32,658 nucleotides of DNA from Candidatus Staskawiczbacteria bacterium. Lineage in GTDB: Bacteria > Patescibacteriota > Minisyncoccia > Minisyncoccales > Staskawiczbacteraceae. Below, piece by piece: positions 323 to 460 of the stretch; position 1 is the first letter of the stretch; each line of letters begins with the position of its first letter. The notes under the pieces were generated by a model. The model was not told the origin of the DNA, searched no databases, and saw only the letters and a program-made list of their open reading frames with translations. The stretch covers positions 1-32,658 of the forward strand of contig CAINWR010000003.1 in assembly GCA_903854535.1 (NCBI GenBank), written 5' to 3'. The translations under genes and the position numbers were made by a program.

Positions 323-460
323 CTCGGAAACAAATTTTAGTCGGCACCGGTGTTGAAATTTTCCAGCGAAAATTTCACACCTCATTCTCGGCAATTTTTC
401 TCGCTTCGCGAGACCATGCAAAAATTGCCTCCGAAGGTGCCTTTAAAATTTATTTTCTCG
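323..460. repeat. 138-bp structured intergenic repeat, copy 1 (type I)
   Basis: Matches 28655-28792 at 136/138 positions by eye; terminal inverted repeats (AAACAAATTTTA..GGCACC / GGTGCC..TAAAATTTATTTT) enclosing two perfect or near-perfect hairpins. Confidence 0.95.

Follow-up and report, generated by a model that had tools for sequence, protein, structure and literature searches.

Many REP sequences of Escherichia coli are situated close behind stop codons, and integron attC sites, which function as a folded bottom strand, likewise follow the stop codon of a sense gene. The ERIC/IRU elements of enterobacteria and the Correia/NEMIS elements of Neisseria have terminal inverted repeats, target duplications and TA at their termini (PMC2229807, Table 1). 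Both are co-transcribed with their neighbors, and ERIC affects mRNA stability in an orientation-dependent way (PMC2229807).

The Patescibacteria element described here resembles ERIC/IRU and Correia/NEMIS in being about 100 to 200 bp long, non-coding and intergenic and in forming a long stem-loop (PMC2229807), but it shows no duplication, its fold is a three-way junction that contains conserved bulges, and it is biased toward stop codons and the sense orientation. It is also similar to REP, BIME and REPIN sequences as short palindromes in gene gaps; however, it is several times longer and three-armed, and the local RAYT genes carry other palindromes. Unlike attC sites, its end logos (GCTCGG/CCTCGCT) lack the RYYYAAC/GTTRRRY (R'' and R' core) boxes, and its hosts are core genes rather than cassettes. 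The palindromic elements of Rickettsia and the pneumococcal RUP, BOX and SPRITE sequences are likewise small palindromic repeats of small or compact genomes, but by their descriptions (in part PMC2229807) they differ from it in size, ends and location rules. A MITE/REP-like repeat is a known kind of element; what is new is the three-way-junction core, the DNA-type covariation, the absence of a duplication and the stop-codon/sense rule.

A three-armed repeat and its relatives

The window, the whole 32,658-nucleotide stretch of DNA that was analyzed, is contig 3 of an 844-kb Candidatus Staskawiczbacteria genome. It contains two copies of a 138-bp repeat (positions 323 to 460 and 28655 to 28792) that, as the initial annotation had stated, differ by exactly 2 mismatches in 138 positions (G327/A28659 and C407/T28739). 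Sequence identity of the two copies ends at both boundaries, and their flanks are entirely unlike. The first copy lies between its upstream host gene groES (26 to 316, an ORF with homologues in 54 of 58 relatives) and groEL (473 to 2104, an ORF supported by tblastn of relatives). The 6-nt distance between the groES stop codon (314 to 316) and the repeat was as claimed, while the distance from the repeat to the groEL ATG (473) is 12 nt instead of the claimed 13 nt. When bounded by the end logos derived from 113 copies, the whole element, GCTCGG...TCTCGCT, extends from 322 to 462 (covariance model, 147.8 bits, E 2.2e-37). The second copy (28654 to 28794, 143.6 bits) follows its upstream host, a cupin-like gene (28229 to 28627), and is followed by a further gene in the same direction; both copies and the three named genes are on the forward strand. 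Elsewhere in the window (15061 to 23650), the gene of a 2187-aa alpha-2-macroglobulin-like protein converges on an opposite-strand PBP1C-like gene; these functions, like that of the cupin-like gene, were assigned from sequence only. Two further copies are present on other contigs of the same genome (G000:C50:8169-8303 and G000:C35:14055-14187), giving four in total.

The fold that had been described for the repeat was correct and is a three-way junction, with an RNA minimum free energy of -50.5 kcal/mol (z -7.45, equaled or bettered by 0 of 200 shuffles); the complementary strand folded as DNA had a z of -7.21. In copy 1 (forward strand throughout), the 5' arm of the outer stem (326 to 348, seen in the fold and in the covariation of 113 copies) pairs with the 3' arm (436 to 457) and encloses two hairpins. 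Hairpin 1 (349 to 381) carries an apical CCAGCG (363 to 368) in a loop conserved phylum-wide, and hairpin 2 (390 to 429), whose base-stem cells are 95.7% paired across 113 copies, carries the conserved 3' bulge ACCATGC (414 to 420). The alignment shows two conserved joints, TCATTCTC (382 to 389) and TCCGAA (430 to 435).

BLASTN against 58 relatives found copies that were 94% to 71% identical, in other genomes and genera and beside other genes, and a covariance model built from 14 copies matched 113 sites (E <= 0.01) spread over 30 of the 58 related Patescibacteria (0 to 13 per genome, 4 here). This is a large family, with more than two copies and covarying homologues, and none of the outcomes that the initial annotation had listed as refuting its reading was seen. 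All copies have a common architecture, a three-way junction in which variable, fully covarying stems are combined with conserved unpaired blocks: CCAGCG at the apex of hairpin 1, a CTCGGC joint, ACCATGC as a one-sided bulge of hairpin 2 and an GCCTGCGA joint. Across the 113 copies, 88.1% of the stem cells were paired, compared with 56.6% after shuffling, double changes occurred at 51 of 51 pairs, and the covariation score was 0.655 versus 0.167 for shuffled data. The outer stem forms inverted terminal repeats, with mostly 85 to 93% of the cells in the outer helices paired. In the order studied, the element begins with GCTCGG, preceded by C, and ends with CCTCGCT, followed by T (end logos, 113 copies), and on the bottom strand CGAG faces CGAG at the ends, which reads as a tandem G.A arrangement. 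In other orders the element ends differ and the core is retained, although the wider-phylum set was picked partly by the core pattern, and its core conservation is therefore inflated.

In a phylum sample, 18 of 389 genomes contained matches, and a sequence pattern followed by the model was positive in Staskawiczbacteria, Wolfebacteria, Portnoybacteria, Nealsonbacteria, Wildermuthbacteria, Magasanikbacteria and others, with weak copies in an 'actinobacterium' bin. Because the search filters were strict, these counts are lower bounds. The elements are about 105 to 200 nt long. No gene was present within any copy, no long gene-bearing version was seen in the loci examined, and in these loci pairs of GCTC/TCGCT ends around a gene were not more frequent than in the control. 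Shorter or differently filled elements with like ends (GCTC or GCTT ... TCGCT) were missed by the model at three loci (L160, L172 and L173), so the family is wider than counted. In one genome (G007; L140, L141, L142, L143 and L146), most copies had an additional TAACAGTT or a near variant immediately past their 3' terminus, a shared extension that would fit a longer moving unit there. Rfam returned nothing relevant for the repeat up to E 10 and only tRNAs for eight related loci, the best BLASTN hit among phages and plasmids was a 21-nt match, and six pattern matches in viral contigs had no covariance-model support. A literature search found no description of the element, and the family apparently represents undescribed small non-coding mobile repeats of Patescibacteria.

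Position behind stop codons and the level of pairing

In codirectional gaps of the order studied, about 90 copies were in the sense orientation relative to the upstream gene and 5 were antisense after the gene calls were rechecked (p about 6e-21 for 89 of 94 sense). The element started 0 to 8 nt past the upstream stop codon in 61 of 101 copies, including copies with a long downstream gap or a convergent next gene, and in several copies its 5' arm provided the last codons and the stop (e.g., rplC ending EIRSGT, L074:2940). Some copies had no sense gene downstream. The bias was weaker in the wider phylum, with 24 sense and 8 antisense copies by automatic gene calls. A pilB-like/ruvB gap (gene names read from the sequences) held a copy in two genomes (L068 in G000:C50 and L126 in G020:C11), and the two copies differed in orientation, the former or latter being antisense and its counterpart sense. 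The host genes were mostly housekeeping genes (groES three times, rpsG, rplC, rpsI and pgk four times each, fusA, enolase and dnaK), and ribosomal proteins made up about one-fifth of them, as judged by eye from translations.

The sense orientation, the start close behind stop codons, the many ribosomal protein, chaperone and glycolytic enzyme genes among the hosts (by their translations) and the strong conservation of loops and joints would fit a structured RNA that acts in cis in the sense transcript, for instance as a 3' UTR stabilizer or processing site or in unequal operon expression, and that spreads by copying. We consider this explanation unlikely. A selected RNA tolerates G.U pairs but not A.C mismatches. 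On the sense strand of the elements there were 173 G.U and 205 A.C combinations, the reverse of RNase P RNA from the same genomes (241 and 51, respectively), although misalignment may explain some of the A.C cells beside the bulge, and a strand bias in mutation could add to the count. Isolated outer-stem mismatches, counted without the covariance alignment, gave 20 G.T and 53 A.C (p = 1.4e-4), the phylum set gave 86 G.U and 134 A.C, and the ratio of one-sided to two-sided changes was 137:1613 in the element versus 144:429 in RNase P RNA. Since A.C mismatches were no rarer than G.U pairs, the pairing looks maintained in DNA, and complementarity looks to be kept at the DNA level, leaning to the bottom strand if anything. 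The antisense strand folded better in 101 of 113 copies, but base composition accounts for most of this difference. A cis-acting RNA is further opposed by the patchy presence of the element, by the copies that have no sense gene downstream, and by the lack of vertical conservation at any single gene: two copies from a shared gap resemble each other no more than a random pair does.

The more specific proposal that the repeat is a cis RNA uncoupling groES from groEL expression was not supported. Besides the lack of G.U tolerance in the pair changes, the element stands behind many unrelated genes, some without a sense gene downstream, and in other genomes groES and groEL are separated by unrelated palindromes or by almost nothing. 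Among 50 genomes, this gap was under 50 nt in 18 and longer in 32; most of the longer gaps contained palindromes of several unrelated sequence kinds, and the element itself was present in three genomes, with probable same-ended relatives in others. The unrelated repeats in L166, L388 and other groES-groEL gaps included TCATTGCGAGG-type, TTCGTATATTCGTA-type and CTAATTATTCTAATTAACC-type sequences. Strong folding was found in 23 of the 32 long groES-groEL gaps versus 27 of 46 codirectional control gaps of 80 to 300 nt. Since other long gaps are similarly structured, the groES-groEL gap is not special, and its candidacy as a special site was weakened accordingly.

Mobility and candidate mobilizing enzymes

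Of 103 copies, 58 had their nearest relative within their own genome, against an expectation of 5.3. Copies occupying the same gap in different genomes had an identity of 0.494, which does not exceed the 0.497 of random cross-genome pairs, and the insertions were therefore independent; the groES-groEL, rpsG-fusA, rplC-rplD and pgk gaps were struck independently in different families. Nested copies and copies abutting remnants of others were also present. No flanking target duplication of 2 to 9 nt was detected at any tested offset in 85 copies, and the genomes yielded no clean match of an empty with an occupied site. The earlier suggestion of a MITE/REPIN-like element was supported by the many copies, the intragenomic amplification, the patchy distribution and the lack of an ORF, whereas a strict REPIN reading fails because the Y1/RAYT genes here are flanked by their own, different palindromes.

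No mobilizing enzyme was found among the candidates screened in the 58 relatives. Genes for Y1_Tnp were present in 34 of the 58, and they were enriched where the element occurs (23 of 30 element-bearing versus 11 of 28 element-free genomes, p = 0.007). This enrichment, the absence of a target duplication and the single-strand fold would suit a REP/REPIN-type element that depends for its movement on a Y1 (RAYT) transposase of the same genome. Nevertheless, we regard that explanation as improbable: none of the 20 Y1 loci inspected had the element at its ends and most had palindromes of their own, three genomes carried the element with no detectable Y1 (G051, with 8 copies, G009 and G030), and one genome with 15 Y1 genes (G042) had a single copy. 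The Y1/RAYT-like genes at L219-L238 (e.g., L222, L227 and L235) encode proteins of about 240 aa, and most are bracketed by a private, locus-specific short palindrome such as GTGGGACGTCCGACGTCCCAC or TTGGGACGTATGACGTCCCAA. Of the rejected mobilizer candidates, Y1_Tnp had palindromes of its own at its loci, the TnpB zinc ribbon and IS110 Transposase_20 were present in 2 and 5 of the 58 genomes, respectively, and reverse transcriptase occurred in about half of both the element-bearing and the element-free genomes.

A classic DDE-transposase MITE, which like RUP or ERIC would have terminal inverted repeats and duplicate its target, is less probable still; it would account for the size, the palindromic ends and the intergenic location, but not for the missing duplication or for terminal sequences that vary between orders while the core is conserved. 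An assembly duplication or chance palindrome, conceivable for a near-identical pair on one contig, is effectively refuted by the copies in other genomes, genera and families and is at odds with the wholly different flanks and the single-base differences.

Proposed mechanism and significance

We conclude that the repeat is probably a palindromic mobile element of Patescibacteria, MITE/REP-like and non-autonomous, that is mobilized in trans as a folded strand. While single-stranded, one of its DNA strands (probably the bottom or template strand) would fold, an enzyme acting in trans would recognize the folded strand and join it to the target without a duplication, and copies would persist where a stop codon has just closed a coding region. 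Co-transcription would presumably follow insertion, and a secondary consequence may be that the hairpin alters mRNA decay or the translation of what lies downstream, possibly in the manner reported for ERIC. A point against this account is the near-absolute sense orientation (about 90:5), which a plain MITE does not predict. A bolder and much more tentative idea, which we think is rather unlikely to be right, is that of a phylum-wide class of mobile DNA that is recognized as a folded single strand with a three-way-junction core and that is guided to its insertion sites by the termination of transcription or translation, so that it comes to lie in one orientation directly after the stop codons of strongly expressed genes.

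The comparison of A.C with G.U combinations separates covariation at the DNA level from covariation at the RNA level, and it carries the caution that covariation alone is insufficient for naming such repeats structured RNAs. The core conserved across the phylum provides a handle for identifying the mobilizing enzyme. Overall, the very small genomes of Patescibacteria nonetheless carry a spreading non-coding repeat with a strict rule of location and orientation.
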